Shown one piece after another: positions 1-47,917 of a stretch of 64,000 nt of DNA. The notes under the pieces were generated by a model, which saw only the letters and a list, made by a program, of their open reading frames with translations, had not been told where the DNA came from and ran no database searches. This DNA comes from Saccopteryx bilineata (taxonomy: Eukaryota > Chordata > Mammalia > Chiroptera > Emballonuridae), in contig NC_089492.1 in NCBI RefSeq assembly GCF_036850765.1, positions 181,862,106-181,926,105 of the forward strand. Reading direction: 5' to 3'. Within the stretch, counting starts at the first letter, position 1. The number at the start of each line of letters is the position of its first letter. Position numbers and translations under genes: made by a program.

Positions 1-1034
1 ATAACCTCTCAAAATCAAGAATAATCTGCAGACTTTATAACCTATCACATTTTATTATATTTGTTCGTTTGTTTCTCTTATCTTCATTCTTGATACTTTT
101 TTTTTCTTCCTCCAATTTGGCCGAATAACTCTCTACTGGTCTTACTCTCTCCTCTCCTTGAACTACACTACCCATAAGTGTTACATCTCCCATTATCTTT
201 TCTCTTCTCTCCCTTTCTCTCTATGAGGGTTGCACTCCAAAACCCTTAACTGTCTCTCTCTCTCCTTTCTTTTTTCTTCTTTTAGTGGTTCCCTCTTTTT
301 TTTCTCTCTCTCTCTCTTTCTTTTCTCCCTCTATATTAGTTTCTTCCTTTCTCCTTTACATCTCCTCTCATTCAAACCTCAATAACAAACAAATTATCTT
401 ATCTGGGACTCAAACCTATGTTTGTGGCATTTTGGGGGGTTTTTACTTCACCTTTTTAACTCACTAGCAGTGCTCCCATCCCTGGTTCTCCATATTATCT
501 AGTTCTTGTTCCACTAAATACAATAGTAATTTTTTAATTTGTCCCCCCATTTTTCCGTTTTCCTCTTATTCCTCTCATCATAACTCTTAGACAACCAACA
601 CCTAAAAGCAAATCATTTTATTCTTGACCCAAATTTTTTCCTTATTTGCTTTTTGTGGGTCCATACGCTCTTTTTTTTTTCTTTTTTTTTCTTTTTTTTT
701 TTCCTTTTCTTTTTTTTCTTTCTTTTTTTCTTTTTTGCCCCTTTATTACTTTTCCCCAATTCAGGCCCTCCATCACAGGCATTGTTTGTTATAACTCACA
801 GTCCACCACAAGATTTTCTCAAGAAAGAGGGGAGAGGAGAGGAGAGGAAAAAAGGAGGGGGGAGAATAATTTCCTTTTTTTAAAAATTTTTATTTTATTT
901 TATTTTTCTTTATTTCATTATTAATTTTTTTTAAAAAAAAACAACTCTTTTCGATTTTTTATTTATTTTTTATTTTTTTTAACTTTTTATTCTTTATTAA
1001 ATCTCATTAATACTATCAACAAAACCACCCTCAG
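1..1034 (+). other. L1-A 5'UTR remainder, pyrimidine-rich
   Basis: About 1 kb dominated by T and C runs on the plus strand, with a purine patch at 830-865. It is homologous to 33040-34031 of copy B. In B the equivalent stretch ends in a splice acceptor (TTAG at 34004-34007). In A the same site reads CATTAA at about 1004-1009, so the acceptor AG is absent. Short open frames here are low-complexity and not genes. Confidence 0.85.
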
Positions 1035-2028
1035 ATGCCATTAAGGAAGAGAAAATCAAATATCATGGATACAAAAGAAAGAGAGGTAACACAGCTAGAT
1101 GAGGAAAAATCTATGGAGAAAAAATTTAATATATTGGAAACCTTGGAGCTAAATGACAGAGAATTCAAGATAGAAATCCTAAAAATCCTCCGAGATATAC
1201 AAGAAAACACAGAAAGGCAATTTAGGGAGCTCAGAAAACAACTCAATGAACACAAAGAATATATGTCCAAGGAAATTGAAACTATAAAAACAAATCAAAC
1301 AGAGATGAAAAACTCAATTCACGAGCTGAAAAATGAAGTAACAAGCTTAGCTAATAGAACAGGTCAGATAGAAGAGAGGATTAGTGAAATAGAAGACAAG
1401 CAACTTGAGGCACAACAGAGAGAAGAAGAAAGAGACTCAAAAATTAAAAAAAATGAGATAGCCCTACAAGAATTATCTGACTCCATCAAAAAGAATAACA
1501 TAAGAATAATAGGTATATCAGAGGGAGAAGAGAGAGAAAATGGAATGGAGAACATACTCAAACAAATAATAGATGAGAACTTCCCAAGCCTGTGGAAAAA
1601 ACTAAAGCCTCAAGTTCAAGAAGCAAACAGAACTCCAAGTTTTCTTAACCCCAACAAACCTACTCCAAGGCATATCATAATGAAATTGACAAACCAACAG
1701 CAAAGAAAAAATTCTCAAGGCAGCCAGGGAAAAGAAGAATACAACATATAAAGGAAGGCCCATTAGATTATCATCAGATTTCTCAGCAGAAACTCTACAA
1801 GCTAGAAGAGAGTGGACCCCAATATTTAAAGTCCTGAAAGAGAGGAACTTTCAGCCACGAATACTATACCCATCAAAGCTATCCTTCAAATACGAAAAAG
1901 AAATAAAAACATTCACAGATACAGAAAAGATGAGGGAATTTATCATGAGAAAACCCCCACTCCAGGAAATACTAAAGGGGGTTCTCCAATCAGATACAAG
2001 GAACAAAAAAAAACAGAGCCACAAGTAA
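1035..2028 (+). pseudogene. L1-A ORF1 (RNA-binding chaperone), frameshifted
   Basis: ORF1p of L1 binds its own RNA as a trimer and acts as a nucleic-acid chaperone in the cytoplasmic ribonucleoprotein. The frame opens at MPLRKRKSN and has a long heptad-rich, E/K-rich coiled coil (about residues 20-145), followed by the start of an RRM at NNIRIIGISEGEE. Compared with B, a few bases are missing near 1684-1700 (around AAATTGACAAACC). The frame therefore leaves the family sequence and stops at 1751. The C-terminal domain continues in another frame and ends at the TAA at 2026-2028. The start matches copies B and C. Confidence 0.9.
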
Positions 2029-2354
2029 AAGTTCCAAGAAGAACACAATAAAACCAAATTTAAACTGTGACAACAACAAAAAGAAAGAGGGGGAGAAGAC
2101 GGAGATTAACAGTAGCAAAGGACGATGGAGTGCAAAAGTACTCACAAAATAGTTCGCTACAATGAACAAGGTAGGGACCCTTTTCATTACTCAAAGGTAA
2201 CCACCACTGAAAAAACCACCACAGAAGCACATGAGATAAAAAAGATAGCAACAGAGGAAAGATGTATGGAATACAACCAAATAAAAACAAAAGATAGAAA
2301 AACGAAAGAGAAGGATCAAACAAGACACGAAACTAACAGAAAGCAAGATATAAA

Positions 2355-5300
2355 ATGGCAATAGGGAACTCACAAGTATCAATAATTACACTAAATGTAA
2401 ACGGATTAAACTCACCAATAAAAAGGCACAGAGTAGCAGAATGGATTAAAAAAGAAAATCCAACTGTATGCTGCCTACAGGAAACTCATCTAAGTAACAA
2501 GGATAAAAACAAATTCAAAGTGAAAGGCTGGAAAACAATACTCCAAGAAAATAACATCCAAAAAAAAAGCAGGTGTAGCAATACTCATATCGGATAATGC
2601 TGACTACAAGACAGGAAAAGTACTCAGAGACAAAAATGGCCATTTCATAATGGCTAAGGGGACACTGAATCAAGAAGACATAACAATTCTTAATATATAT
2701 GCACCAAACCAAGGAGCACCAAAATATATAAGACAGCTACTTATTGATCTTAAAACAAAAACTGACAAAAATACAATCATACTTGGAGACCTCAATACAC
2801 CGCTGATGGCTCTAGATCGGTCATCCAAACAGAGAATCAACAAAGACATAGTGGCCTTAAACAAAACACTAGAGCACCTGGATATGATAGACATCTACAG
2901 GACATTTCATCCCAAAGTGACTGAGTATACATTTTTCTCCAGTGTACATGGATCATTCTCAAGAATTGACCATATGTTGGGCCACAAAAACAACATCAGC
3001 AAATTCAGAAAAATTGAAGTTGTACCAAGCATATTTTCTGATCATAAAGCCTTGAAACTAGAATTCAACTGCAAAAAAGAGGAAAAAAATCCCACAAAAA
3101 TGTGGAAACTAAACAACATACTTTTAAAAAATGAATGGGTCAAAGAAGAAATAAGTGCAGAGATCAAAAGATATATAGAGACTAATGAAAATGACAATAC
3201 GACATATCAGAATCTATGGGATGCAGCAAAAGCAGTGATAAGAGGGAAGTTCATATCGCTTCAGGCATATATGAACAAACAAGAGAGAGCCCAAGTGAAC
3301 CACTTAACTTCCCACCTTAAGGAACTAGAAAAAGAAGAACAAAGACAACCCAAAATCAGCCGAAGAAAGGAAATAATAAAAATCAGAGCAGAAATAAATG
3401 AATTAGAGAACAGAAAAACTATAGAAAAAATTAATAGAACAAGGAGCTGGTTCTTTGAAAAGATCAACAAAATTGACAAACCCTTGGCAAGACTTACCAA
3501 GGAAAAAAGAGAAAGAACTCATATAAACAAAATCCAAAATGAAAGAGGAGAAATCACCACGGACACTGTAGATATACAAAGAATTATTGTAGAATACTAT
3601 GAAAAACTTTATGCCACTAAATTCAACAACCTAGAAGAAATGGATAAATTCCTAGAAAAATACAACCTTCCTAGACTGAGTCAAGAAGCAGCAGAAAGCC
3701 TAAACAGACCTATCAGTAGAGAAGAAATAGAAAAAACCATTAAAAACCTCCCCAAAAATAAAAGTCCAGGCCCTGACGGCTATACCAGCGAATTTTATCA
3801 AACATTCAAAGAAGACTTGGTTCCTATTCTACTCAAAGTCTTCCAAAAAATTGAAGAAGAAGCAATACTTCCAAACACATTTTATGAGGCCAACATAACC
3901 CTCATCCCAAAACCAGGCAAGGATGGCACAAAAAAAGAAAACTACAGACCAATATCTCTAATGAATACAGATGCAAAAATACTAAACAAAATACTAGCAA
4001 ATTGAATACAACAACATATTAAAAAAATAATACATCATGATCAAGTGGGATTCATCCCAGAATCTCAAGGATGGTTCAACATACGTAAAACGGTTAATGT
4101 AATACACCATATCAACAAAACAAAGAACAAAAACCACATGATCTTATCAATAGATGCAGAAAAGGCTTTCGATAAAATACAACACAATTTTATGTTTAAG
4201 ACTCTCAACAAAATGGGTATAGAAGGAAAATATCTCAACATGATAAAGGCCATATATGATAAACCATCAGCTAACATCATATTAAATGGCACTAAACTGA
4301 AGGCTTTCCCCCTTAAATCAGGAACAAGACAGGGTTGTCCACTCTCTCCACTCTTATTTAATGTGGTACTAGAGGTTCTAGCCAGAGCAATCAGACAAGA
4401 CAAAGAAATAAAAGGCATCCATATCGGAAAAGAAGAAGTAAAGGTATCACTTTTTGCAGATGATATGATCCTATACATCGAAAACCCCAAAGAATCCACA
4501 AAAAGACTTCTAGAAACAATAAGCCAATACAGTAAGGTCGCAGGATACAAAATTAACATACAGAAGTCAATAGCCTTTCTATATGCCAACAATGAAACAA
4601 CTGAGAAAGAACTCAAAAGAATAATCCCCTTCACGATTGCAACAAAAAAAATAAAATACTTAGGAATAAACATAACAAAGAATGTAAAGGACTTATATAA
4701 TGAAAACTATAAACCATTGTTAAGGGAAATCGAAAAAGATATAATGAGATGGAAGAATATACCTTGTTCTTGGCTAGGAAGAATAAATATAATCAAGATG
4801 GCTATATTACCCAAAGCAATATACAAATTTAATGCAATTCCCATCAAACTTCCAATGACGTTTTTTAAAGAAATAGAGCAAAAAATCATCAGATTTATAT
4901 GGAACTATAAAAAACCCCGAATAGCCAAAGCAATCCTAAAGAAAAAGAATGAAGCTGGGGGCATTACAATACCTGACTTCAAACTCTATTATAGGGCCAC
5001 GACAATCAAAACAGCATGGTATTGGCAGAAAAGTAGACACTCAGACCAATGGAACAGAATAGAAAGTCCAGAAATAAAACCACATATATATAGTCAAATA
5101 ATTTTTGATAAAGGGGCCAACAACACACAATGGAGAAAAGAAAGCCTCTTCAATAAATAGTACTGGGAAAACTGGAAAGCCACATGCAAAAGAATGAAAC
5201 TGGACTACAGTCTCTCCCCCTGTACAAAAATTAACTCAAAATGGATCAAAGATCTAAACATAAGACCTGAAACAATTAAGTACATAGAAGAAGACATAGG

Positions 5301-6183
5301 TACTCAACTCATGGACCTGGGTTTTAAAGAGCATTTTATGAATTTGACTCCAATGGCAAGAGAAGTGAAGGCAAAAATTAATGAATGGGACTACATCAGA
5401 CTAAGAAGTTTTTGCTCAGCAAGAGAAACTGATAACAAAATAAACAGAAAGCCAACTAAATGGGAAATGATATTTTCAAACAACAGCTCAGATAAGGGCC
5501 TAATATCCAAAATATACAAAGAACTCATAAAACTCAACAACAAACAAACAAACAATCCAATAAAAAAATGGGAAGAGGATATGAATAGACACTTCTCCCA
5601 GGAAGAAATACAAATGGCCAACAGATATATGAAAAGATGCTCATCTTCTTTAGCTATTAGAGAAATGCAAATCAAAACGGCAATGAGATACCACCTCACA
5701 CCTGTTCGATTAGCTGTTATTAGCAAGTCAGGTAATAGCAAATGTTGGAGAGGCTGTGGAGAAAAAGGAACCCTCATCCACTGTTGGTGGGAATGTAAAG
5801 TAGTACAACCATTATGGAAGAAAGTATGGTGGTTCCTCAAAAAACTGAAAATAGAACTACCTTATGACCCAGCAATCCCTCTACTGGGTATATATCCCCA
5901 AAACTCAGAAACATTGATACGTAAAGACCCATGCAGCCCCATGTTTATTGCAGCATTGTTCACAGTGGCCAGGACATGGAAACAACCAAAAAGCCCATCA
6001 ATAGATGACTGGATAAAGAAGATGTGGCACATATACACTATGGAATACTACTCAGCCATAAGAAATGATGACATCGGAACATTTACAGCAAAATGGTGGG
6101 ATCTTGATAACATGATACGAAGCGAAATAAGTAAATCAGAAAAAACCAGGAACTGTATTATTCCATACGTAGGTGGGACATAA
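2355..6183 (+). pseudogene. L1-A ORF2 (endonuclease/reverse transcriptase), broken
   Basis: ORF2p nicks target DNA and reverse-transcribes L1 RNA at the nick. Visible parts are an APE-type endonuclease (NVNGLN, QETHL, later LGDLNTPL and SDHKAL), a reverse transcriptase with FDKIQ and FADDM (FADD near 4456), and a cysteine-rich C-terminus ([18 protein letters not shown]). Defects: an extra A in the A-run near 2560-2570 shifts the frame; CGA became TGA at 4003-4005; TGG became TAG at 5158-5160. The end is PYVGGT then TAA at 6181-6183. Length without the breaks would be about 1,275 codons, normal for mammalian L1. Confidence 0.93.
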
Positions 6184-6450
6184 TACTAAAACTAAGAGAC
6201 ATTGACAAGAGTGTGGTGGTTACGGGGGGGAGGGGGGAATGGGAGAGGAATAGGGGTTGGGGAGCGGCACAAAGAAAACAAGATAGAAGGTGACAGAGGA
6301 CAATCTGACTTTGGGTGGTGGGTATGCAACATAATTGAACGACAAGATAACCTGGACTTGTTATCTTTGAATATATGTATCCTGATTTATTGATGTCACC
6401 CCATTAAAAAAATAAAATTATAAAAAAAAAATAAAGAAAGAAAGAAAGAG

Positions 6451-31559: not shown

Positions 31560-31669
31560 CAGTGTTTCCCAACCTTTTTTGTGCCATGCCCCACCTTAAC
31601 CTTTCTAAAATTTTTATGTCCCACCCTATGTAACATACATAATTTTTAACATTAAAAAATTGATTTGTT

Positions 31670-31720
31670 AAGTGATGTCACGGAAATGGCGCCGTGAGCA
31701 GCGCGTCCCACAGCTCTCCC
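31670..31720 (+). promoter_or_regulatory. L1 copy B promoter start, CRE-like and YY1-like sites
   Basis: The element starts AAGTGATGTCACGGAAATGG followed by CGCCGTGAGCAGCG. TGATGTCA is one base from a CRE; copy C at the same place has the perfect palindrome TGACGTCA (45907-45914). AAATGGCGCC resembles a YY1 core, the factor known to set the start site of human L1 near +15. Function is inferred; the sites are seen. Confidence 0.6.
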
Positions 31721-31893
31721 CTAAATCACAACAAATTTATCAACTAGAAACAGAAAAATTTATCCTCGGAGCATTCCAGAGTTCCACACAAACTGAAAGC
31801 AAAAGGACTGTTATCACTTGAATCTGAGAGACGAGGGTGTGGAGGATTCTGCCACAGGGACGTTCTTTCAAACCGCAAGGAAGTGCGCCTGTG

Positions 31894-34007
31894 GTGAGTC
31901 AGCCCATATACTTGGGAACCGCGAGCCGACGCAAGCCACCACCGCGAGCGGCCGCCACGAGCCGCCGCGACCCGCCGCGAGCAGCCGTGCGCCCTGTCCG
32001 GTTGAGCACCGCTGACGTTCCCAGCGGCCCGCACACTGCGAGTGGGGGTCGCCGGCCACCGGTGCCCGGAGCGCCCCATTTGCGCGTGCCTTGGGCATTC
32101 CACGCGCCCAGGGTGCCCTGCTGGCCCGCACACCCAGGGGGCTCGATTATCCTGTGCCTGGTGCGGTCCAGCCGCCAGCGGCGGGGTGAGCGGGAGAGGC
32201 TTGGGAGATTCTCTCCGTGGGCGGGGCACCTCACCCAGCCATTCAAGCTAACAATCAAGCGTTGGGGGAGGGGCACACGCAGGCAGCCTAAAATACCTTC
32301 AGAAGCACAGCTGCGACCCAATCACTGAAATTAGCTTAACACATGAAATCTGCGCACCCTCGGTTCTAATTGATAAGATCTCTCTCAGTTCAGCGATCCA
32401 AGACAAGAGGCGTGATATTTTTTAGTGCCGCTCGCTAAACGGGCGGGGGCAACTTCTGATTGATAGAGCCTCCATATTCAGGGATAAACGCTAACAAGAA
32501 GGACTTGGCAGATAATAAGGTCTATACTACACTAGTCGTAAGCAGAGACTAGTGCCTCTTCTTCCCTGCAAAAACAGGCTACAAAGTGTGGAAAGCCTGG
32601 GTTGAGAGGTCCACCTGAATGCTAGGCGCTGAACAGTCACCTTGACAACAATTGACTCCCACCCCCGCCTGATTACACTGGACGCCCTGACTGTCAGAGC
32701 CTTTCCCAAAGCCCTGCACTGAGTGGGGATAGAGTGGGGATTTCCCAGCTCTTTGAGCCTCTTACTCCCCAGGCAGAAGCAGTTGCAGCCTTATAGCTGG
32801 ATCACCAGGCTGCTAATTCAGAAAGGGGGGACTAGGAGACAGAATCCAGGAAAGCAAACTCTCTCATCATTGGACCCTGCAAACGCCAACAAGCCTTTAC
32901 TTCCAGCAAGACTAAAGCCAATTATATGACATTGCCATAGAATCCCATCAACTGCAAATCCCTACCTAAGAGTGACACAGGGGCAGAGCCTGGGGTACAG
33001 AGTCACCGACCAGGAAGAGAGAAAAGAAAAAGGAAGAAGTTAACCTCTCAAAATCAAGAAAAACCCACAGACTTTACAAGTTGATCCACTAATTTTTTTT
33101 TTTTTTGTTGTTGTTTGTTTCTTCTATTTTTTGCCTTTATTTCCTCCACCTCGGTCCTTCTATTCTCTGCCCATCTTATGCTTCCCCTTTCTTGAACTAC
33201 ACTACTCATGAGTGTTGCATTTTATTTTTCCTCTTCATCCTCACGCTCCTTTAAGGTTATACTCCAAAACATTTAACTCTCATTCTCTCCTCTTTTGTTT
33301 TTTTTTTTGTTTGTTTGTTTTTGTCTTGCTTTATTTGTTTTTTTCTCTTCCTATTTTATTTCTTCCTTCGTTTTTCTCTTTTTCTTATTTTTTCCTTTCT
33401 ATTCGTTTTTTCTTTTCTCATTTTGCTTTCCTCCCATATAATCCTCAATCATGAACAAATTAGTTAATTTGGGACTCAAGGCTTTTTTTTGGCTTTATTT
33501 CTCTTTTTTGCTTTTGTTTTTATTTTTTTTTCTTGTTTGTTTATTTTTGTGGCATTTTGGGTCCTCCCAACCCAAGGTCTCCATTGTATTTAGTCTTTGC
33601 TCCACTTAATACAACAGATTTTTACTTATTATTTTTATTTTTTCTTCTTTATTATTCTTTTTTGGTCCTTTTTTCTGGTTCCCTCTTACCCCTCTCATTA
33701 TATCTCTTAATTGACCATCACTTACAAGCAAATCATCTTATGCTTGTCTAAGATTTTCTTCCTTTTTTTTTTTTTTTTTTTTTTTGCACTTAGTAGGTCC
33801 CTACTCCCTTTTTTTTGCCCTCGAACTCTTCACCCCAAATCAGGCCCTCCATTATAGGCACGATATTTCCCTGAGGAGGGGAGAGGAGGGAAAGAGAAGA
33901 GAGAAAAAAAAAAAGGGAAATAATAAATTATTACTGTTTTTTTTTGTGGGGTGTTTTACTCTTTTTTTTTTTTTTTTTACTTTTTACTCTTTATTAATTC
34001 TAATTAG
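31894..34007 (+). other. Inferred intron in L1 5'UTR
   Basis: The boundary at 31893/31894 reads GCCTGTG then GTGAGTCAG, close to a consensus donor. The end reads TTCTAATTAG at 33998-34007 after a pyrimidine-rich stretch, a good acceptor, and the next exon begins TGCTATCAATAAG. Copy C contains CCTGTG joined directly to TGCTATCAACAAG with nothing between. That is exactly the product of removing these 2,114 nt. The intron is inferred from this comparison; no RNA was seen. Confidence 0.88.
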
Positions 34008-34031
34008 TGCTATCAATAAGACCACCATCAG

Positions 34032-35027
34032 ATGCCGATAAGAAAGAGGAAATCGAATATTATGGATACAAAAGAAAGAGAGGCAACACAAATAGATGTG
34101 GAAAAATCTATGGAGAAAAGACTTAACATATTGGAAGCCTTGGAGCTAAATGACAGAGAATTTAAAATAGAAATCTTAAAAATACTCAGAGATATACAAG
34201 AAAACACAGAAAGGCAATATAGGGAGATCAGAAAACAACTCAATGAACACAAAGAATATATTACCAAGGAAATTGAAACTATAAAAACAAATCAAACAGA
34301 AATGAAAAACTCAATTCACGAGCTGAAAAACGAGGTAACAAGCTTAGCTAACAGAACAGCCCAGATTGAAGATAGGATTAGTGAAATAGAAGACAAACAA
34401 CTTGAGGCAAAACAGAGAGAAGAAGAAAGAGACTCAAAAATAATAAAAAAGAAGAAAGCCCTACAGGAATTGTCTGACTCCATCAGAAAGAATAACATAA
34501 GAATAATAGGTATATCAGAGGGAGAAGAGAAAGAAAATGGAATGGAGAATATACTCAAACAAATAATAGATGAGAACTTTCCAAGCCTGTGGAAGGAACT
34601 AAAGCCTCAAATTCAAGAAGCAAACAGAACACTAAGTTTTCTTAACCCCAACAAACCCACTCCAAGGCACATCATAATAAAGATGACACAAACCAATGAC
34701 AAAGAAAAAATTCTCAAGGCAGCCAGGGAAAAGAAGAGTACAACATATAAAGGAAGGCCTATTAGATTATCATCAGATTTCTCAGCAGAAACTCTACAAG
34801 CTAGAAGAGAGTGGACCCCAATATTTAAAGCCCTGAAAGAGAGGAACTTTCAGCCAAGAATACTATACCCATCAAAGCTATCCTTCAAGTATGAAGGAGA
34901 TATAAAAACATTCACAAATACAGAAAAGATGAGAGAATTTATCAACAGAAAGCCCCCACTCCAGGAAATACTAAAGGGGGTTTTCCAACCAGATTCAAAG
35001 AACAAAAGAAAACAACACCACAAGTAA
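34032..35027 (+). CDS. L1-B ORF1p, RNA-binding chaperone, intact
   Basis: 331 residues, the expected size. It begins MPIRKRKSNIMDTKERE; residues 20-145 are a K/E/Q-rich coiled coil with heptads (trimerisation). The RRM starts near residue 153 (NNIRIIGISEGEE), and the C-terminal domain contains TYKGRPIRLSSDFSAETLQA and ILYPSKLSFKYEG. The protein coats L1 RNA in the cytoplasmic particle. The start is fixed by homology with copies A and C and follows the splice acceptor by 24 nt. The spacer to ORF2 (325 nt) has stops. No defect is seen, so this gene could still encode protein. Confidence 0.92.
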   Translation: MPIRKRKSNIMDTKEREATQIDVEKSMEKRLNILEALELNDREFKIEILKILRDIQENTERQYREIRKQLNEHKEYITKEIETIKTNQTEMKNSIHELKNEVTSLANRTAQIEDRISEIEDKQLEAKQREEERDSKIIKKKKALQELSDSIRKNNIRIIGISEGEEKENGMENILKQIIDENFPSLWKELKPQIQEANRTLSFLNPNKPTPRHIIIKMTQTNDKEKILKAAREKKSTTYKGRPIRLSSDFSAETLQARREWTPIFKALKERNFQPRILYPSKLSFKYEGDIKTFTNTEKMREFINRKPPLQEILKGVFQPDSKNKRKQHHK

Positions 35028-35352
35028 CAGCTCCACCAAGAACACAATAAAACCAAACTTAAACTGTGGCAACAAAGGAAAAAAAGGGGGGAGAGGATGG
35101 AGATTAACAGTAGCAAAGGACGATGAAGTGCACAAATACTTATAAGATAGGGTACTACAATGAATATGGTAGGTACCCTTTTTATTACTTAATGGTAACC
35201 ACCCTTGAAAAAACCACCACAAAAACACTTGACTTAAAAAAGGTAGCAACAGAGGAAAGAAGTATGGAACACAAACAAACAGAAACAAATGATAGAAAAA
35301 CAAAAGAGAAGAATCAAACTAGATACAAAACTAACAGAAAGCAATTTATAAA

Positions 35353-38300
35353 ATGGCAGTAGGGAACCCACAAGTGTCAATAATTACACTAAATGTAAAT
35401 GGATTAAACTTACCAATAAAAAGACACAGAGTAGCAGAATGGATTAAAAAAGAAAATCCAACTATATGCTGCCTACAAGAAACACATCTAAGCAACAAGG
35501 ATAAAAACAAATTCAAAGTGAAAGGCTGGAAAACAATACTCCAAGCAAACAACACCCAAAAAAAAGCAGGTGTAGCAATACTCATATCTAATAATGCTGA
35601 CTACAAGACAGAAAAAGTACTCAGAGACAAAAATGGTCATTTCATAATGATTAAGGGGAAGTTGAATCAAGAAGACATAACAATCCTTAATATATATGCA
35701 CCAAACCAAGGAGCACCAAAATATATAAGACAGCTACTTATTGACCTCAAAACAAAAACTAACAAAAATACAATCATACTTGGAGACCTCAATACACCGC
35801 TGATGGCTCTAGATCGGTCATCCAAACAGAGAATCAATAAAGATATAGTGGCCTTAAACGAAATACTAGAACACCTGGATATGATAGACATCTACAGGAC
35901 ACTTCATCCCAAAGCGACAGAGTATACATTTTTCTCTAGTGTACATGGAACATTCTCAAGAATTGACCATATGTTGGGCCACAAAGACAATATCAGCAAA
36001 TTTAGAAAAATTGAAATTGTACCAAGCATATTTTCTGATCATAAAGCCTTGAAACTAGAATTCAACTGCAAAAAAGAGGGGGAAAAATCCACAAAAATGT
36101 GGAAACTAAACAACATACTTCTAAAAAATGAATGGGTCAAAGAAGAAATAAGCGCAGAGATCAAAAGATATATACAGACAAATGAAAATGAAAATACGAC
36201 ATATCAGAATCTCTGGGATGCAGCAAAAGCAGTAATAAGAGGAAAGTTCATATCACTTCAGGCCTATATGAACAAACAAGAGAGAGCTGAAGTAAACCAC
36301 TTAACTTCACACCTTAAGGAACTAGAAAAAGAAGAACAAAGACAACCCAAAACCAGCCGAAGAAAGGAGATAATAAAAATCAGAGCAGAAATAAATGAAA
36401 TAGAGAACAGAAAAACTATAGAAAAAATCAATAAAACAAGGAGCTGGTTCTTTGAAAAGATCAACAAAATTGACAAACCCTTGGCAAGACTCACCAAGGA
36501 AAAAAGGCACAGGACTCAAATAAATAAAATCCAAAATGAAAGAGGAGAGATCACCACAGACATCATAGAAATACAAAGAATTATTGTAGAATACTATGAA
36601 AAATTATATGCCACCAAATACAACAATCTAGAAGAAATGGATAAATTCCTAGAACAATACAACCTTCCTAGACTGAGTCATGAAGAAGCAGAAAGCCTAA
36701 ACAGACCAATCAGCAGGGAGGAAATAGAAAAAACTATTAAAAATCTCCCCAAAAATAAAAGTCCAGGCCCAGACGGTTATACTAGTGAATTCTATCAAAC
36801 ATTCAAAGAAGAATTGGTTCCTATTCTACTCAAAGTCTTCCAAAAAACTGAAGAAGAAGCAATACTTCGAAACACATTTTATGAGGCCAACATAACCCTC
36901 ATACCAAAACCTGGCAAGGATGGCACGAAGAAACAAAACTACAGACCAGTATCTCTAATGAACACAGATGCTAAAATACTAAACAAAATACTGGCAAACC
37001 GAATACAACAACATATTAAAAAAATAATACATCATGATCAAGTGGGATTCATCCCAGAATCTCAAGGATGGTTCAACATACGCAAAACGGTCAACGTAAT
37101 ACACCATATCAACAAAACAAAGAACAAAAACCACATGATCTTATCAATAGATGCAGAAAAGGCTTTTGATAAAATACAACACAATTTTATGTTTAAGACT
37201 CTCAACAAAATGGGTATAGAAGGAAAATATCTCAACATGATAAAGGCCATATAAGATAAACCATCAGCCAACATCATATTAAACGGCATAAAACTGAGGA
37301 CTTTTTACCTTAAATCAGGAACAAGACAGGGTTGTCCACTCTCTCCACTCTTATTTAACGTGGTGCTAGAAGTTCTGGCCAGAGCAATCAGACAAGACAA
37401 AGAAATAAAAGGCATCCATATCGGAAAAGAAGAAGTAAAGGTATCACTTTTTGCTGATGATATGATCCTATACATCGAAAACCCGAAGGACTCCACAAAA
37501 AGATTATTAGAAACAATAAACCAATACAGTAAGGTCGCAGGATACAAAATTAACATACAAAAGTCCATAGCCTTTCTATATGCCAACAATGAAATATTAG
37601 AAAACGAACTCAAAAAAATAATCCCCTTCACGATTGCAACAAAAAAAATAAAATACCTAGGAATAAACATAACAAAGAATGTAAAGGACCTATATAATGA
37701 AAATTACAAAGCATTGTTAAGGGAAATCGAAAAAGATACAATGAGATGGAAAAATATTCCTTGTTCTTGGATAGGAAGAATAAATATAATCAAAATGGCC
37801 ATATTACCCAAAGCAATATACAAATTCAATGCAATTCCCATCAAAATCCCTATGAGATTTTTTAAAGAAATGGAACAAAAAATTATCAGATTTATATGGA
37901 ACTACAAAAAACCCCGAATAGCCAAAAGAATCCTAAGGAAAAAGAATGAAGCTGGGGGCATTACAATACCTGACTTTAAACTGTATTATAGGGCCACGAG
38001 AATCAAAACAGCATGGTATTGGCAGAAAAATAGACACTCAGACCAATGGAACAGAATAGAAAGCCCAGAAATAAAACCACATATATATGGTCAAATAATC
38101 TTTGATAAAGGGGCCAACAACACACAATGGAGAAAAGAAAGCCTCTTCAACAAATGGTGTTGGGAAAACTGGAAAGCCACATGCAAAAGAATGAAACTCG
38201 ACTACAGCCTGTCCCCGTGTACTAAAATTAATTCAAAATGGATCAAAGACCTAAATATAAGACCTGAAACAATAAAGTACATAGAAGAAGACATAGGTAC

Positions 38301-39179
38301 TAAAATCATGGACCTGGGTTTTAAAGAACATTTTATGAACTTGACTCCAATGGCAAGAGAAGTGAAGGCAAAGATAAATGAATGGGACTACAACAGAATT
38401 AAAAGTTTCTGCTCAGCAAGAGAAACTGATATCAAAATAAACAGACAGCCAACTATATGGGAATGATATTTTCTAACGACAGCTCAGATAAGGGCCTAAT
38501 ATCCAAAATTTACAAAGAACTCATAAAACTCAACAACAAACAAACAAACAATCCAATAAAAAAATGGGAAGAGGACATGAACAGACACTTCTCCCAGGAA
38601 GAGATACAAATGGCCAACAGATATATGAAAAGATGCTCAGCTTCATTAGTTATTAGAGAAATGCAAATCAAAACTACAATGAGATACCACCTCACTCCTG
38701 TTAGATTAGCTATTATCAACAAGACGGGTAATAGCAAATGTTGGAGAGGCTGTGGAGAAAAAGGAACCCTCATTCACTGTTGGTGGGACTGTAAAGTAGT
38801 ACAACCATTATGGAGGAAAGTATGGTGGTTCCTCAAAAAACTGCAAATAGAACTACCCTATGACCCAGCAATCCCTCTACTGGGTATATACCCCAAAACC
38901 TCAGAAACATTGATACGTGAAGACACATGTAGCCCCATGTTCATTGCAGCACTGTTCACAGTGGCCAAGACATGGAAACAACCAAAAAGCCCTTCAATAG
39001 AAGACTCGATAAAGAAGATGTGGCACATATACACTATGGAATACTACTCAGCCATAAGAAATGATGACATCAGATCATTTACAGCAAAATGGTGGGATCT
39101 TGATAACATTATAAGGAGTGAAATAAGTAAATCAGAAAAAAACAAGAACTACCTGATTCCATACATTGGTGGAACATAA
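35353..39179 (+). pseudogene. L1-B ORF2, premature stop and frameshift
   Basis: Endonuclease and reverse transcriptase of L1. The endonuclease is complete: N14 in TLNVNGLN, E43 in QETHL, then LGDLNTPL and SDHKAL. RT motif A is at FDKIQ, and FADD falls at codons 700-703 (37450-37461). A cysteine-rich tail ([18 protein letters not shown]) and PYIGGT lead to TAA at 39177. Codon 634 is TAA (37252-37254) where copy A has TAT. The translated part keeps the endonuclease but loses RT motif C. A one-base loss near 38463 (GGGAATG for GGGAAATG) breaks the frame again. The codon-634 stop is shared with copy C; the deletion is not. Confidence 0.94.
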
Positions 39180-39446
39180 AAATGAGACTAAGAGACATGG
39201 ACAAGAGTGTGGTGGTTACCAAGAGTGGGGGGGGGAGGGAGGACATAAGAGGGAGGGAGGGAGAGAGTTAGGGGGAGGGGGAGGGGCACAGAGAACTAGA
39301 TAGAGGGTGACGGAGGACAATCTGACTTTGGGCGAGGGGTTTGCAACATAATTTGATGACAAAATAACCTAGACATGTTTTCTTTGAATATATGTACCCT
39401 GATTTATTAATGTCATCCCATTACCATTAATAAAAATTTATAAAAT
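39180..39446 (+). other. L1-B 3'UTR with G-rich tract and A-rich tail
   Basis: G runs at about 39225-39290 (GGGGGGGGGGAGGGAGG and several GGGAGGG units) could form a G-quadruplex, as reported for other mammalian L1 3'UTRs. The end is TTACCATTAATAAAAATTTA with a short impure tail. Confidence 0.8.
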
Positions 39447-39461
39447 AAAAATTGATTTGTT

Positions 39462-39619
39462 CACTTAATAAACATAAATGATAGGTTCTAGGAAGAAATC
39501 ACTATGAAATTGTTAACAAAACACAGTAAGTAAAATTTCAAAACATGTAATGAAAAACAGAAATTTAAATTCCAAATAATTTTAATACAGATTTTTCTAT
39601 ATTAATTTATTATTTTAAT
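39462..39619 (-). other. hAT 3' non-coding region
   Basis: AT-rich sequence between the transposase stop and the L1-B insertion. On the far side of L1-B it continues as 31654-31560, to the element's left terminus. Confidence 0.75.
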
Positions 39620-40218
39620 TTAGTGTGATCCTTGCGCTTGATTCTTGCTGCACAGAGATTTTATATTAGGTTCCAATTTGGTTAGCTTTCGTCTCAAGTC
39701 TCCACGTTTTGTTATATCCAGCCGATTTCTTTTTTTGACCAGTAAATCATTTATAGCACTAAATCCACATTCAGCTAAAAATGAAGATGGAAACGGTAGC
39801 AATAGTTTTCTTGCACATTTGGTTGAATTTGGGTATTTGATTTCTGTTTCCTCACAAAGCCATGCCATTGCTCCTTTGATATTAAATAAAGCTTTAACTG
39901 ACTCATCATTTTGTAATTCTGCGAGTTCTTCTTGATACTGCATATTTGATAAATCAGACAAATCCCCTAACATTGGCTGCATCATCCATGTTGGGAAATC
40001 AATTTGTTTTAAATCAGAAAATCTTTCTTTTAAATCAGCCGATAGAATATTCAAATGATTGACAATAACAAGTAAAGCGGTATCAGTTACTTCACATTTT
40101 TGGAGCCAATGAAACTGTTTAAAGTTTTTGTTGTTAATATGTTTCTGACATAACTCAATATTGGTAATGAAACCAAATATCTTTGCTTTTGCATCGAGAA
40201 GAGTTTTATTTGTTCCTT
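39620..40218 (-). pseudogene. hAT transposase, C-terminal part
   Basis: The minus-strand frame is open from the L1-C boundary (about 40218) to the stop at 39620-39622, about 199 codons. It contains the conserved hAT C-terminal dimerisation region (LLLPFPSSFLAECGFSAIND), including the SSFLAE-type motif with an acidic residue where the family's catalytic glutamate region lies. It continues directly, in frame, from the sequence on the far side of L1-C (45933 leftwards): LNKQL is split by the insertion. The L1 therefore interrupts an otherwise continuous frame. Confidence 0.9.
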
Positions 40219-40519
40219 GAAGTTGCTTATTTATTTATTTATTTATTTCCTTTTTTTAAAATAAATTTTTATTAATGGTAATGGGATGACATTAATAAAT
40301 CAGGGTACATATATTCAAAGAAAACATGTCTAGGTTATTTTGTCATTAAATTATGTTGCGTACCCCTCGCCCAAAGTCAGATTGTCCTCTGCCACCCTCT
40401 ATCTAGTTCTCTGTGCCCCTCCCCCTCCCCCTAACTCTCTCCCTCCCTCCCTCCCATGTCCTCCCTCCCCCCACCCCTGGTAACCACCACACTCTTGTCC
40501 ATGTCTCTTAGTCTCATTT

Positions 40520-43500
40520 TTATGTTCCACCAATGTATGGAATCATGTAGTTTTTGTTTTTTTCTGATTTACTTATTTCACTCCTTATAATGTTATCAAG
40601 ATCCCACCATTTTGCTGTAAATGATCTGATGTCATCATTTCTTATGGCTGAGTAGTATTCCATAGTGTATATGTGCCACATCTTCTTTATCGAGTCTTCT
40701 ATTGAAGGGCTTTTTGGTTGTTTCCATGTCTTGGCCACTGTGAACAGTGCTGCAATGAACATGGGGCTACATGTGTCTTCACGTATCAATGTTTCTGAGG
40801 TTTTGGGGTATATACCCAGTAGAGGGATTGCTGGGTCATAGGGTAGTTCTATTTGCAGTTTTTTGAGGAACCACCATACTTTCCTCCATAATGGTTGTAC
40901 TACTTTACAGTCCCACCAACAGTGAATGAGGGTTCCTTTTTCTCCACAGCCTCTCCAACATTTGCTATTATCCGTCTTGTTGATAATAGCTAATCTAACA
41001 GGGGTGAGGTGGTATCTCATTGTAGTTTTGATTTGCATTTCTCTAATAACTAATGAAGCTGAGCATCTTTTCATATATCTGTTGGCCATTTGTATCTCTT
41101 CCTGGGAGAAGTGTCTGTTCATGTCCTCTTCCCATTTTTTTATTGGATTGTTTGTTTGTTTGTTGTTGAGTTTTATAAGTTCTTTGTAAATTTTGGATAT
41201 TAGGCCCTTATCTGAGCTGTTGTTTGAAAATATCATTTCCCATTTAGTTGGCTGTCTGTTTATTTTTATATCAGTTTCTCTTGCTGAGTAAAAACTTTTT
41301 ATTCTGATGTAGTCCCATTCATTTATCTTTGCCTTCACTTCTCTTGCCATTGGAGTCAAGTTCATAAAATGTTCTTTAAAACCCAGGTCCATGATTTTAG
41401 TACCTATGTCTTCTTCTATGTACTTTATTGTTTCAGGTCTTATATTTAGGTCTTTGATCCATTTTGAATTAATTTTAGTACACGGGGACAGGCTGTAGTC
41501 GAGTTTCATTCTTTTGCATGTGGCTTTCCAGTTTTCCCAACACCATTTGTTGAAGAGGCTTTCTTTTCTCCATTGTGTGTTGTTGGCCCCTTTATCAAAG
41601 ATTATTTGACCATATATATGTGGTTTTATTTCTGGGCTTTCTATTCTGTTCCATTGGTCTGAGTGTCTATTTTTCTGCCAATACCATGCTGTTTTGATTC
41701 TCGTGGCCCTATAATATAGTTTAAAGTCAGGTATTGTAATGGCCCCAGCTTCATTCTTTTTCCTTAGGATTGTTTTGGCTATTCGGGGTTTTTTATAGTT
41801 CCATATAAATATGATGATTTTTTGTTCCATTACTTTAAAAAATCTCATAGGGATTTTATTGGGAATTGCATTGAATTTGTATATTGCTTTGGGTAATATG
41901 GCCATTTTGATTATATTTATTCTTCCTATCCAAGAACAAGGAATATTTTTCCATCTCATTGTATCTTTTTCGATTTCCCTTAACAATGCTTTGTAATTTT
42001 CATTATATAGGTCCTTTACATTCTTTGTTATGTTTATTCCTAGGTATTTTATTTTTTTTTTGTTGCAATCTTGAAGGGGATTATTTTTTTGAGTTTGTTT
42101 TCTAATATTTCATTGTTGGCATATAGAAAGGCTATGGACTTTTGTATGTTAATTTTGTATCCTGCGACCTTACTGTATTGGTTTATTGTTTCTAATAATC
42201 TTTTTGTGGAGTCCTTCGGGTTTTCGATGTATAGGATCATATCATCAGCAAAAAGTGATACCTTTACTTCTTCTTTTCCGATATGGATGCCTTTTATTTC
42301 TTTGTCTTGTCTGATTGCTCTGGCCAGAACTTCTAGCACCACGTTAAATAAGAGTGGAGAGAGTGGACAACCCTGTCTTGTTCCTGATTTAAGGTAAAAA
42401 GTCCTCAGTTTTATGCCATTTAATATGATGTTGGCTGATGGTTTATCTTATATGGCCTTTATCATGTTGAGATATTTTCCTTCTATACCCATTTTGTTGA
42501 GAGTCTTAAACATAAAATTGTGTTGTATTTTATCAAAAGCCTTTTCTGCATCTATTGATAAGATCATGTGGTTTTTGTTCTTTGTTTTGTTGATATGGTG
42601 TATTACGTTGACCGTTTTGCGTATGTTGAACCATCCTTGAGATTCTGGGATGAATCCCACTTGATCATGATGTATTATTTTTTTAATATGTTGTTGTATT
42701 CGGTTTGCCAGTATTTTGTTTAGTATTTTAGCATCTGTGTTCATTAGAGATACTGGTCTGTAGTTTTGTTTCTTCGTGCCATCCTTGCCAGGTTTTGGTA
42801 TGAGGGTTATGTTGGCCTCATAAAATGTGTTTCGAAGTATTGCTTCTTCTTCAGTTTTTTGGAAGACTTTGAGTAGAATAGGAACCAATTCTTCTTTGAA
42901 TGTTTGATAGAATTCACTAGTATAACCGTCTGGGCCTGGACTTTTATTTTTGGGGAGATTTTTAATAGTTTTTTCTATTTCCTCCCTGCTGATTGGTCTG
43001 TTTAGGCTTTCTGCTTCTTCATGACTCAGTCTAGGAAGGTTGTATTGTTCTAGGAATTTATCCATTTCTTCTAGATTGTTGTATTTGGTGGCATATAATT
43101 TTTCATAGTATTCTACAATAATTCTTTGTATTTCTATGATGTCTGTGGTGATCTCTCCTCTTTCATTTTGGATTTTATTTATTTGAGTCCTGTGCCTTTT
43201 TTCCTTGGTGAGTCTTGCCAAGGATTTGTCAATTTTGTTGATCTTTTCAAAGAACCAGCTCCTTGTTTTATTGATTTTTTCTATAGTTTTTCTGTTCTCT
43301 ATTTCATTTATTTCTGCTCTGATTTTTATTATCTCCTTTCTTCGGCTGGTTTTGGGTTGTCTTTGTTCTTCTTTTTCTAGTTCCTTAAGGTGTGAAGTTA
43401 AGTGGTTTACTTCAGCTCTCTCTTGTTTGTTCATATAGGCCTGAAGTGATATGAACTTTCCTCTTATTACTGCTTTTGCTGCATCCCAGAGATTCTGATA

Positions 43501-44350
43501 TGTCGTATTTTCATTTTCATTTGTCTGTATATATCTTTTGATCTCTGCGCTTATTTCTTCTTTGACCCATTCATTTTTTAGAAGTATGTTGTTTAGTTTC
43601 CACATTTTTGTGGGTTTTTTCCCCTCTTTTTTGCAGTTGAATTCTAGTTTCAAGGCTTTATGATCAGAAAATATGCTTGGTACAATTTCAATTTTTTCTA
43701 AATTTGCTGATATTGTCTTTGTGGCCCAACATATGGTCAATTCTTGAGAATGTTCCATGTACACTAGAGAAAAATGTATACTCTGTCGCTTTGGGATGAA
43801 ATGTCTTGTAGATGTCTATCATATCCAGGTGTTCTAGTATTTCGTTTAAGGCCACTATATCTTTATTGATTCTCTGTTTGGATGACCGATCTAGAGCCGT
43901 CAGCGGTGTATTGAGGTCTCCAAGTATGATTATATTTTTGTTAGTTTTTGTTTTAAGGTCAATAAGTAGCTGTCTTATATATTTTGGTGCTCCTTGGTTT
44001 GGTGCATATATATTAAGGATTGTTATGTCTTCTTGATTCAACTTCCCCTTAATCATTATGAAATGACCATTTTTGTTTCTGAGTACTTTTTCTGTCTTGT
44101 AGTCAGCATTGTTAGATATGAGTATTGCTACACCTGCTTTTTTTTGGGTGTTGTTTGCTTGGAGTATTGTTTTCCAGCCTTTCACTTTGAATTTGTTTTT
44201 ATCCTGGTTGCTTAGATGTGTTTCTTGTAGGCAGCATATAGTTGGATTTTCTTTTTTAATCCATTCTGCTACTCTGTGTCTTTTTATTGGTAAGTTTAAT
44301 CCATTTACATTTAGTGTAATTATTGACACTTGTGGGTTCCCTACTGCCAT
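40520..44350 (-). pseudogene. L1-C ORF2, shared stop plus private frameshifts
   Basis: Same domain order as in copy B: endonuclease with TLNVNGLN and QETHL, reverse transcriptase with FADDM (about 42240-42254), cysteine-rich C-terminus, and PYIGGT before the stop at 40520-40522. Defects: one extra A in an A-run near 43690-43696; TAA at 42448-42450, the same codon as in copy B; one extra A in the ATTGCAACAAAAAAAAA run near 42052-42062. The last 488 codons are open. The endonuclease is separated from the RT by the first frameshift, so no functional ORF2p is expected. Confidence 0.94.
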
Positions 44351-44673
44351 TTTATAAATTGCTTTCTGTTAGTTTTGTATCTAGTTTGATTCTTCTCTTT
44401 TGTTTTTCTATCATTTGTTTTTGTTTGTTTGTGTTCCATACTTCTTTCCTCTGTTGCTACCTTTTTTAAGTCAAGTGTTTTTGTGGTGGTTTTTTCAAGG
44501 GTGGTTACCATTAAGTTATGAAAAGGTTACCTACTATATTCATTGTAGTACCCTATCTTATAAGTATTTCTGCCCTTCATCGTCCTTTGCTACTGTTAAT
44601 CTCCATCCTCTCCCCCCTTTTTCCTTTGTTGTCACAGTTTAAGTTTGGTTTTATTGTGTTCTTGGTGGAGCTG

Positions 44674-45669
44674 TTACTTGTGGTGTTGTTTTCTTTTGTT
44701 CTTTGAATCTGGTTGGAAAACCCCCTTTAGTATTTCCTGGAGTGGGGGCTTTCTGTTGATAAATTCTCTCATCTTTTCTGTATTTGTGAATGTTTTTATA
44801 TCTCCTTCATACTTGAAGGATAGCTTTGATGGGTATAGTATTCTTGGCTGAAAGTTCCTCTCTTTCAGGGCTTTAAATATTGGGGTCCACTCTCTTCTAG
44901 CTTTTAGAGTTTCTGCTGAGAAATCTGATGATAATCTAATAGGCCTTCCTTTATATGTTGTACTCTTCTTTTCCCTGGCTGCCTTGAGAATTTTTTCTTT
45001 GTCATTGGTTTGTGTCATCTTTATTATGATGTGCCTTGGAGTGGGTTTGTTGGGGTTAAGGAAACTCGGTGTTCTATTTGCTTCTTGAATTTGAGGCTTT
45101 AGTTCTTTCCACAGGCTTGGGAAGTTCTCATCTATTATTTGTTTGAGTATATTCTCCATTCCATTTTCTTTCTCTTCTCCCTCTGATATACCTATTATTC
45201 TTATGTTATTCTTTCTGATGGAGTCAGACAATTCCTGTAGGGCTTTCTTCTTTTTTATTATTTTTGAGTCTCTTTCTTCTTCTCTCTGTTGTGCCTCAAG
45301 TTGTTTGTCTTCTATTTCACTAATCCTATCTTCAATCTGGGCTGTTCTGTTAGCTAAGCTTGTTACCTCGTTTTTCAGCTCGTGAATTGAGTTTTTCATT
45401 TCTGTTTGATTTGTTTTTATAGTTTCAACTTCCTTGGTAATATATTCTTTGTGTTCATTGAGTTGTTTTCTGATCTCCCTATATTGCCTTTCTGTGTTTT
45501 CTTGTATATCTCTGAGTATTTTTAAGATTTCTATTTTAAATTCTCTGTCATTTAGCTCCAAGGCTTCCAATATGTTAAGTCTTTTTTCCATAGATTTTTC
45601 CACATCTATTTGTGTTACCTCTCTTTCTTTTGTATCCATAATATTCGATTTCCTCTTTTTTATTGGCAT
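44674..45669 (-). CDS. L1-C ORF1p, intact, with possible N-terminal extension
   Basis: 331 residues from the family start (ATG at 45669-45667, MPIKKRKSNIMDTKERE): coiled coil, RRM (NNIRIIGISEGEE) and C-terminal domain (TYKGRPIRLSSDF). It differs from copy B at about six residues. Because the 5'UTR intron is absent, an upstream ATG at 45756-45754 is joined in frame, which would give a 360-residue protein with 29 extra residues (MRVWRKLPQGRSFKPRGSAP...). In copy B that codon is ACG (31831-31833). Which start is used cannot be told from sequence; the internal one is the ancestral start. Confidence 0.9.
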   Translation of the reverse strand: MPIKKRKSNIMDTKEREVTQIDVEKSMEKRLNILEALELNDREFKIEILKILRDIQENTERQYREIRKQLNEHKEYITKEVETIKTNQTEMKNSIHELKNEVTSLANRTAQIEDRISEIEDKQLEAQQREEERDSKIIKKKKALQELSDSIRKNNIRIIGISEGEEKENGMENILKQIIDENFPSLWKELKPQIQEANRTPSFLNPNKPTPRHIIIKMTQTNDKEKILKAAREKKSTTYKGRPIRLSSDFSAETLKARREWTPIFKALKERNFQPRILYPSKLSFKYEGDIKTFTNTEKMREFINRKPPLQEILKGVFQPDSKNKRKQHHK

Positions 45670-45692
45670 CTGAGGGTGGTCTTGTTGATAGC

Positions 45693-45694
45693 AC
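45693..45694 (-). other. Splice junction fossil in L1-C
   Basis: On the minus strand exon 1 ends CACCTGTG (45694) and exon 2 begins TGCTATCAACAAG (45693). Both sides agree to the base with the donor (31893/31894) and acceptor (34007/34008) of copy B. Confidence 0.93.
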
Positions 45695-45932
45695 ACAGGT
45701 GCACTCCCTCGCGGCTTGAATGAACGTCCCTGTGGTAGCTTCCTCCACACCCTCATCTCTCAGATTCAAGTGATAACAGTCCTTTCACTTTCAGTTTGTG
45801 TGGAACTCCGGAATGCTCTGAGGATAAATTTTTCTGTTTCTAGTTGATAAATTTGTTGTGATTTAGGGGAGATCTGTTGGACACGCTGCTCATGGCGCCA
45901 TTTCCGTGACGTCACTCGAAGTTGCTTATTTA

Positions 45933-47131
45933 ATATATTTAGTTTTTCAAATATATCGGCTAAATAACTCACAAATGCTTTACCATCTATTGTTAACAGA
46001 TACTTCATTTCAAGTTTGTTGCTTAAAAAATCACTGAGAGTGTCAAACAGTTCCATAAATCTTTTCAAACAATTTCCTTTAGATAGCTGTCTTACTTCAG
46101 TGTAAAGTAAAAGTCTCACATGGTCTTCATTTTGTTGTTCACAAAATAGCTTGAAAGGACGCTCACATTTGACACTAGCTTTAATAGCATTAACACACTT
46201 TATTACTCTATGTAATACTTCATTCAGAACAGGCGAGATGTTTTTAGCTACCAAGTTTTCCCTATGAATAACACAATGCACAAGAATCATTTCTGGATTC
46301 GCATCTTTCATCAATTTTAAGCAGCCATGTTTCTTGCCCATCATATTGGGAGCACCATCTGCAGCATAAGATGTTATATTTTTCATTGGTATATCATTGA
46401 CATCTAAGTAGTTTTTTAGCTTATAATATATATATATATTTGGAGGTAGTGGTGCTTTCTAATCTTTTACAGAACAACATTTCTTCAGCAAAATGTCCTT
46501 TATCAATATATCTTATGTAAGTTATCAATACTGCCTCACTGTCTCTCAAAGTTGATTCATCCATTTGCAAGGAGAATTTTCTTGTTTTCAGCTTTTCAAT
46601 AAGTTGTTTTTCAATATCCTCACTCATTTTGTCTATTCTTCTGCTAACAGTATTGTCACTGAGTGGCATAGCTTTTACATCTTTGTCGTCTTTTTCAAGA
46701 ACCATTTTAAGAAATGCTGATATTGACGGTTTTATTAAATTCTCTCCTATAGTGTGATTTTCTCCAGTTTTAGCGATGAATAAAGAAATATGATAACTAG
46801 CCTCAAGAACACGATTATTAGTTGAAGTATGAGCAGTAAATAGAGACTTTAATATTGTTCTTTTTTCAAAATTTTTCTTTAAAGTTTTAAAGTAACTCAA
46901 ATCTGAATTAATATGAGCACTATGTTTTGCCTTCAAATGCGTCTCAAGACGACCTCGTTTCATTAATTCATTGGTCAAGCATTGCTGGCATAAAAGACAA
47001 AAAGGAATCCGCTCATCATGAACAGCGGGTATGAACCCAAGTTTTAAATATTCCTCCGAATATTGATGAGTTTTTTTCTTGCTTGCACCACTTATTTTAC
47101 TATGGGCTATAAGAAATAAAAATAAGATCAA
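45933..47131 (-). pseudogene. hAT transposase, N-terminal and central part
   Basis: hAT transposases cut the element out and insert it elsewhere with 8-bp duplications. The frame includes a BED-type zinc finger (CLLCQQCLTNEL then HLKAKHSAH). It then has SASYHISLFIAKTGENHTIG-like transposase text (residues ASYHISLFIAKTGENHTIGE), FSLQMDESTL with a probable first catalytic D, and AADGAPNMMGKKHGC with a probable second D. A stop arises at 46421-46423 because an AT dinucleotide run at 46425-46441 shifts the frame; the next frame continues at once with KLKNYLDVNDIPMKN. L1-C then interrupts. An acceptor-like TTCTTATAG at 47107-47115 suggests the coding exon may begin near 47106. Total length is about 600 residues. 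Confidence 0.9.
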
Positions 47132-47917
47132 TTAAAAACTAATATTAAAATATGTGTTAAAATATATTCAATGTGACATAGAGTAAACGTATTCTAAAAA
47201 TTCATATTTATTTAAATGTATATAACACATTTACTACACTACCACCGCAAATCAAAAGGTATCTATATTTTTTCCACTTGACAAAATTTTCTGGAAAGTT
47301 ATGCTTCTAAAATTAAAATTGTCATGCATGCACTGTTATAGCCCCAATAATATTTATAAAATATTAGTGCTTTCTAGCCCCGATGCAAGTAGTACTTAAT
47401 AAAGAGTTTAATATTGATAAAAATAAAATCAAATCTTACCAATTATATCTATACATTACATATGTGTATATTTATTAAATCAACAAGCTTTTACAACAGT
47501 TTTGACTGACACTTATTTCAAATTAACACCAACTGAATGATGTGAAACACTACAGAATTTGCGATGGGCCAGTTAGGTGAGAATAACTGCGTTGTTTAGC
47601 GAGTTTTTTAAACGTCCGGGGTTCCCCGCGGCAGACGGCATGCTCCGCGGTGAACCCAGGATGAAGTTTACTTGATGACGCCAATCACCCAGTTGACATT
47701 TTGGTCTCGTCAAACGAAATTATACTTAATTAATTTTTACCGCAATTATTTAAGAATTGCATTTTTTGTTAAATTTGGCACCTATATCTACCTAGCATTG
47801 CATTTAAATGGCCCGGTGTGAAAGAGTTAAAGTCGTGTCGAGTCCATTTTCAAATTGCCCCCCTTAACTATCGAATTGCCCCCCTGTGGGGCATGGGCCT
47901 GACGTTGGGAAACACCG
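47132..47917 (-). promoter_or_regulatory. hAT 5' region with GC-rich promoter-like block
   Basis: A GC/CpG-rich block at 47605-47665 stands out in AT-rich surroundings. Next to it is GATGACGCCAATCACCC (47674-47690), containing a CCAAT box and a CRE half site. Near the terminus, TTGCCCCCCTTAAC and TTGCCCCCCTGTGG (about 47856-47890) form a subterminal direct repeat, which hAT transposases often need. If a first exon lies here it is not identifiable by eye. Confidence 0.55.

Follow-up and report, generated by a model that had tools for sequence, protein, structure and literature searches.

Copy C, one of the L1 elements in the window (the whole 64,000-nucleotide stretch of DNA that was analysed), is very probably a SpIRE, that is, an L1 RNA that was spliced and afterwards retrotransposed. 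The window holds at least four L1 copies (A, B, C, and an older D) plus fragments at ~11.2 to 12.7 kb, and B serves as the unspliced reference for C (Table 1).

Table 1. L1 copies in the window and features of copies B and C.
Feature	Position	Strand	Basis or remark
L1 copy A	1..6432	+	5' side truncated by window start; alignment
L1 copy B, full-length unspliced relative of C	31670..39446	+	alignment, target duplications
L1 copy C, full-length minus one 5'UTR segment	40234..45917	-	alignment to B, flanking target duplications
Older L1 copy D, in pieces	~55.7-62.8 kb	-	larger pieces 66-78% identical to B
Copy C exon 1 (L1 nt 1-224)	45694..45917	-	alignment to B
Copy C splice junction	45693..45694	-	breakpoint placement analysis
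Copy C ORF1, 331 codons + stop	44674..45669	-	PF02994, PF17490
Copy C target duplication, 3' side	40219..40233	.	perfect 15 bp
Copy C target duplication, 5' side	45918..45932	.	perfect 15 bp
Copy B exon 1	31670..31893	+	alignment to C
Copy B inferred intron, GTGAGT...TTAG, 2,114 nt	31894..34007	+	breakpoint and splice-site scoring
Copy B RUNX-like core TGTGGT, donor GT = final two bases	31890..31895	+	motif match
Copy B ORF1	34032..35027	+	ATG 24 nt past acceptor AG

Both copies begin at the identical L1 position, and their first exons align over 224 nt each with 19 mismatches and no gaps. The body of C, from 45693 downward, aligns with B from 34008 with 73 mismatches in 5,440 compared sites, five of them in the final 11 nt of the A-rich terminus. 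What is missing from C is precisely B 31894-34007, a segment that starts with GTGAGT and ends with TTAG. The flanks are joined without added bases, and the placement of the junction is ambiguous by a single base, a shared G. Over 13 placements, from shift -6 to shift +6, GT..AG is read at shift 0 and GG..TA at shift -1, the other placement that the shared G allows. The sequence-only reading had described C as an integrated spliced L1 RNA, on the grounds of a common 224-nt start, an exact loss of 2,114 nt, and flanks that join cleanly. Base-by-base alignment bears out each of these points, leaving one of the two equivalent placements at GT-AG, and the splicing part of the interpretation is strongly supported by this exact loss together with the pair test, the duplications, and the empty site described below.

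The donor of the inferred intron ranks first among the 84 GTs within the B 5'UTR (scored with general donor-site frequencies) and the acceptor sixth among the 143 AGs (on a crude, home-made score). A T-rich tract precedes the acceptor AG, and the AG-free stretch upstream of it measures 90 nt, the fifth longest of the 143 with distances capped at 100. By hand count, what we take to be branch-point-like TTTAC occurs twice, placing the A at positions -22 and -29 relative to the acceptor. Together, the tract, the AG-free stretch, and the branch-point-like motif favour the splicing reading. To estimate how often chance would produce such a pair of sites, we considered all deletions of ≥200 nt inside the B 5'UTR (n = 2,331,720). 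GT-AG appeared in some equivalent placement in 7,912 of them (0.34%), and in only 18 (7.7e-6) did donor and acceptor both score at least equally well. Splicing before retrotransposition is thus strongly supported by the exact GT-AG loss, the best-ranked donor, and this pair test.

Copy C carries the hallmarks of an insertion of its own, namely a complete 5' end, an A-rich tail, which the sequence itself shows to be built of AAAT units, and, as had been claimed, a perfect target duplication of 15 bp, GAAGTTGCTTATTTA, on both sides (at 40219 and 45918). Copy B is flanked by a different perfect 15-bp duplication, AAAAATTGATTTGTT, at 31655 and 39447. C interrupts a minus-strand ORF of the surrounding transposon, and when C is removed and one duplication kept, the frame is open across the join and continues for ~200 residues before a stop. 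Because this frame is restored at the empty site and C has its own perfect duplication, C most likely inserted already shortened. The proposal that the loss preceded the insertion is thus supported, the order being deduced from the clean empty site, the intact duplication, the exact junction, and the unspliced sibling B. Copy A is 91.6% identical to B from B 33954 onward, and upstream of ORF1 it contains a diverged version of the 3' part of the intron (63% identity to B); since A also carries this part, the long 5'UTR is not a private insertion of B.

Differences between B and C outside CpG sites are proportionally more frequent in the first exon, with 9 in 224 sites versus 54 in 5,228 in the body (Fisher p = 0.001; rough CpG-site rule, body counted up to B 39240). 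Because divergence in exon 1 exceeds that of the body, B is probably a sibling and not the parent of C. The excess would be explained equally if L1 5' ends evolve faster or if the two 5' ends have separate histories. Another irregularity was found between B 36088 and 37606, where the matching part of C has only 2 mismatches over 1,517 nt, while the remaining 3,923 compared sites contain 71. None of 5,000 shuffles produced a span of that length enclosing 2 to 5 steps, and 3 of 5,000 produced a longest single gap of this size. Inside the near-identical tract, B and C have in common an ORF2 nonsense codon, TAA at 37252-37254, that is absent from A. The tract and the codon may derive from gene conversion between the inverted copies or from a common defective source; as B and C share the codon, the source L1 may itself have been defective.

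The inferred intron comprises 2,114 of the 2,362 nt of the B 5'UTR (89%), with its 3' end 24 nt short of the ORF1 ATG, matching the expectation that nearly the whole 5'UTR beyond nt 224 is removed. Lost with it are a CpG-rich block of 607 nt (53 CpG, observed/expected 0.91), presumed to be the main promoter, and a part of 967 nt with 50% T. In exon 1 of both B and C we find at +15 what we take to be a YY1-like motif, and the donor GT of B closes a TGTGGT that is presumably a RUNX-like core. There are two matches to TGYGGT on the plus strand of the B 5'UTR, one of which is the donor site, and one on the minus strand. The suggestion that C might still be transcribed fared less well than the other claims: the retained motif at +15 weakly supports it, and the loss of the presumed promoter block tells against it. 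In the accessible part of the report on human SpIREs, those spliced within the 5'UTR had strongly reduced promoter activity (PMC5860796). Having kept little of its presumed promoter DNA, C is probably a dead end. The motif match at the donor would make a suggestive parallel with human L1. There, the donor G98U99 lies inside a RUNX3 core site whose mutation lowers L1 RNA (Larson et al. 2018; PMC5860796, accessible part).

ORF1 is whole in C and matched the Pfam L1 ORF1 domains PF02994 and PF17490, and ORF2 is disrupted in both B and C. Among the best 120 of 435 protein matches to ORF1, the top-scoring were two proteins without a name (62% identity), followed by two proteins of the bat Cnephaeus nilssonii (54% identity over 48% and 46% over 86% of the query) and, below them, horse among others (~55% over 81%). 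The first named matches to the ORF2 piece, among the best 120 of 728, came from rodent (64% over 68%), horse (71%), blue whale, pig, and dog, all at 64-71%. On these matches, whose identities are too low to point to one host, the 'bat-type' label of the sequence-only reading is neither borne out nor contradicted. In IMG/VR, the junction pattern retrieved two stretches (L001 and L002) with just short chance matches to the window, and the 12 stretches matched by pattern for ORF1 included no relatives by tblastn, in a search from which records of this genome were possibly excluded. Exon 1 of C, unlike that of B, has an ATG at 45756 whose frame continues across the junction into ORF1 (45670-45756, minus strand), giving 360 residues, 29 of them extra. 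We judged this extension accidental, since B has ACG at that place and a TAA in the leader. In a search for proteins with the extension, none of the best 120 of the 435 matches covers more than 87% of the query.

We propose that a near relative of B, and probably not B, would have been transcribed from its normal start, and that the spliceosome would have cut out the 2,114-nt intron between a donor after nt 224 and an acceptor 24 nt before the ORF1 ATG, so that neither ORF1 nor ORF2 was cut. After polyadenylation, this spliced RNA would have been copied into the hAT-like transposon by target-primed reverse transcription. We infer both the RNA intermediate and the rare or accidental nature of such splicing. 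The common start of B and C, their separate 15-bp duplications, the ORF continuous across the empty site, the intron part in copy A, and the human precedent all favour this reading. Against it count the acceptor rank of only 6 of 143, the presence of a single spliced copy (C) in the window, the ORF2 nonsense codon shared by B and C, and the fact that, if B is not the parent, the splice sites of the actual parent are unseen. At the acceptor position, where B has AG, copy A reads AA, which argues against an intron of long-standing function; the donor of A falls beyond the window's start. In the acceptor and leader region (986-1030, plus strand), three G positions of B, one of them the acceptor G, are A in copy A; C keeps two of these sites, both as G.

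Other origins for C have to be weighed against splicing. That the segment was lost by deletion at the DNA level or by reverse-transcriptase jumping, and resembles an intron by chance, is extremely improbable: the one shared base at the junction would permit a microhomology join, but no bases were added there and the pair test, with just 18 deletions having equally good sites on both sides, makes such events unlikely. Descent from an established L1 subfamily that still retrotransposes with a short, once-spliced 5'UTR would account for the start site and presumed YY1-like motif retained in exon 1, and also for its non-CpG divergence of about four times that of the body, as though each 5' end had its own history. 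We consider it very unlikely, however, with the body of C just 1.3% diverged from B, the CpG-rich block absent, and the ORF2 of C broken today. Human SpIREs are, moreover, regarded by the authors who described them as generally dead ends (PMC5860796, accessible part).

A further possibility is an L1 lineage with a regular, alternatively spliced 5'UTR intron, in which, in a retrovirus-like manner, the unspliced RNA would be the genomic form with the full promoter and the spliced RNA the form for translation, SpIREs such as C being leakage. The spliced leader, 248 nt directly before ORF1, has two upstream ATGs in B, versus nine when unspliced. We think this arrangement very unlikely.

As the sequence-only reading stated, spliced integrated L1s are known in humans. 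In the accessible part of PMC5860796, SpIREs account for 131 of 6,609 annotated full-length L1PA1-PA6 elements, and in the partly accessible human literature one class with the same junction reaches 116 copies. Among the SpIREs of that study spliced within the 5'UTR, SpIRE97/622 and SpIRE97/790 resemble C in their L1 insertion hallmarks, their uncut ORF1 and ORF2, and a donor in a RUNX-type motif, in C by motif match alone. They differ in having the donor after nt 97 (nt 224 in C) and an intron of ~0.5-0.7 kb (2,114 nt in C), whereas the acceptor of C lies just 24 nt before the ORF1 ATG, in a 5'UTR of 2,362 nt and another L1 lineage. SpIRE97/976, of the 5'UTR/ORF1 type, is the same kind of event, but its acceptor is within ORF1 and its ORF1p is truncated, unlike the uncut ORF1 of C. 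From the accessible part of PMC13174262, one human SpIRE, an L1PA2 in an intron of RAP1GDS1, apparently regained competence from a gene promoter, proposed to have allowed renewed retrotransposition; C, in contrast, sits in a transposon and has a broken ORF2. A mouse study reports splice sites in L1 for both the sense and the antisense strand (PMC2176070), and a megabat L1 was rebuilt without its UTRs and so has no bearing on leader splicing (PMC4072516), as far as the accessible parts of both papers go. The SpIRE papers PMC5860796, PMC5860798, and PMC13174262 all deal, in their accessible parts, with human L1. Spliced L1s or SpIREs in bats were not found in the literature searched, mostly without subscription papers, and non-primate SpIREs may be published.

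The kind of event is thus already known, and what is new is one clear case with an intron that spans most of the leader and a donor in a RUNX-like motif, in a mammal whose nearest named L1 relatives are non-primate. If the host is non-primate, as these relatives suggest, splicing of the L1 leader with later reintegration also happens beyond primates, and another L1 lineage has acquired or preserved a donor in a RUNX-like motif. Should the junction prove to recur across the genome, one could test in non-primates whether promoter motifs saddle L1 with harmful splice sites.

The DNA transposon in which B and C are nested (31560-47917), which we take to be hAT-like, measures 2,867 nt after subtraction of B, C, and one duplication each. 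Its ends show 8-bp duplications, CCTTAGCT, and similar termini, CAGTGTTTCCCAAC and CGGTGTTTCCCAAC. Three pieces of its interrupted ORF had no Pfam match above a curated cut-off, and one weak match, to Cation_ATPase (E 0.088). Among the best 120 of 128 matches, a 190-residue piece of the ORF shared 92% identity with a protein from the bee Anthophora plagiata. Its identity with proteins from spiders, a scorpion, a catshark, and Hydra was 75-90%, the latter group being named SCAND3, FAM200C, or ZBED8-like, or uncharacterized. This distribution makes the element a candidate for horizontal transfer, with contamination of the matching records as an alternative.

Elsewhere in the window, positions 27149-27269 (plus strand) matched SNORA32 with 136 bits and are followed by an A-rich tail. 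No exact repeats of 8-25 nt were detected by script in the flanks, and an imperfect one (AAAATG-ACTGAA) was seen by eye; the match is probably a retroposed snoRNA copy.
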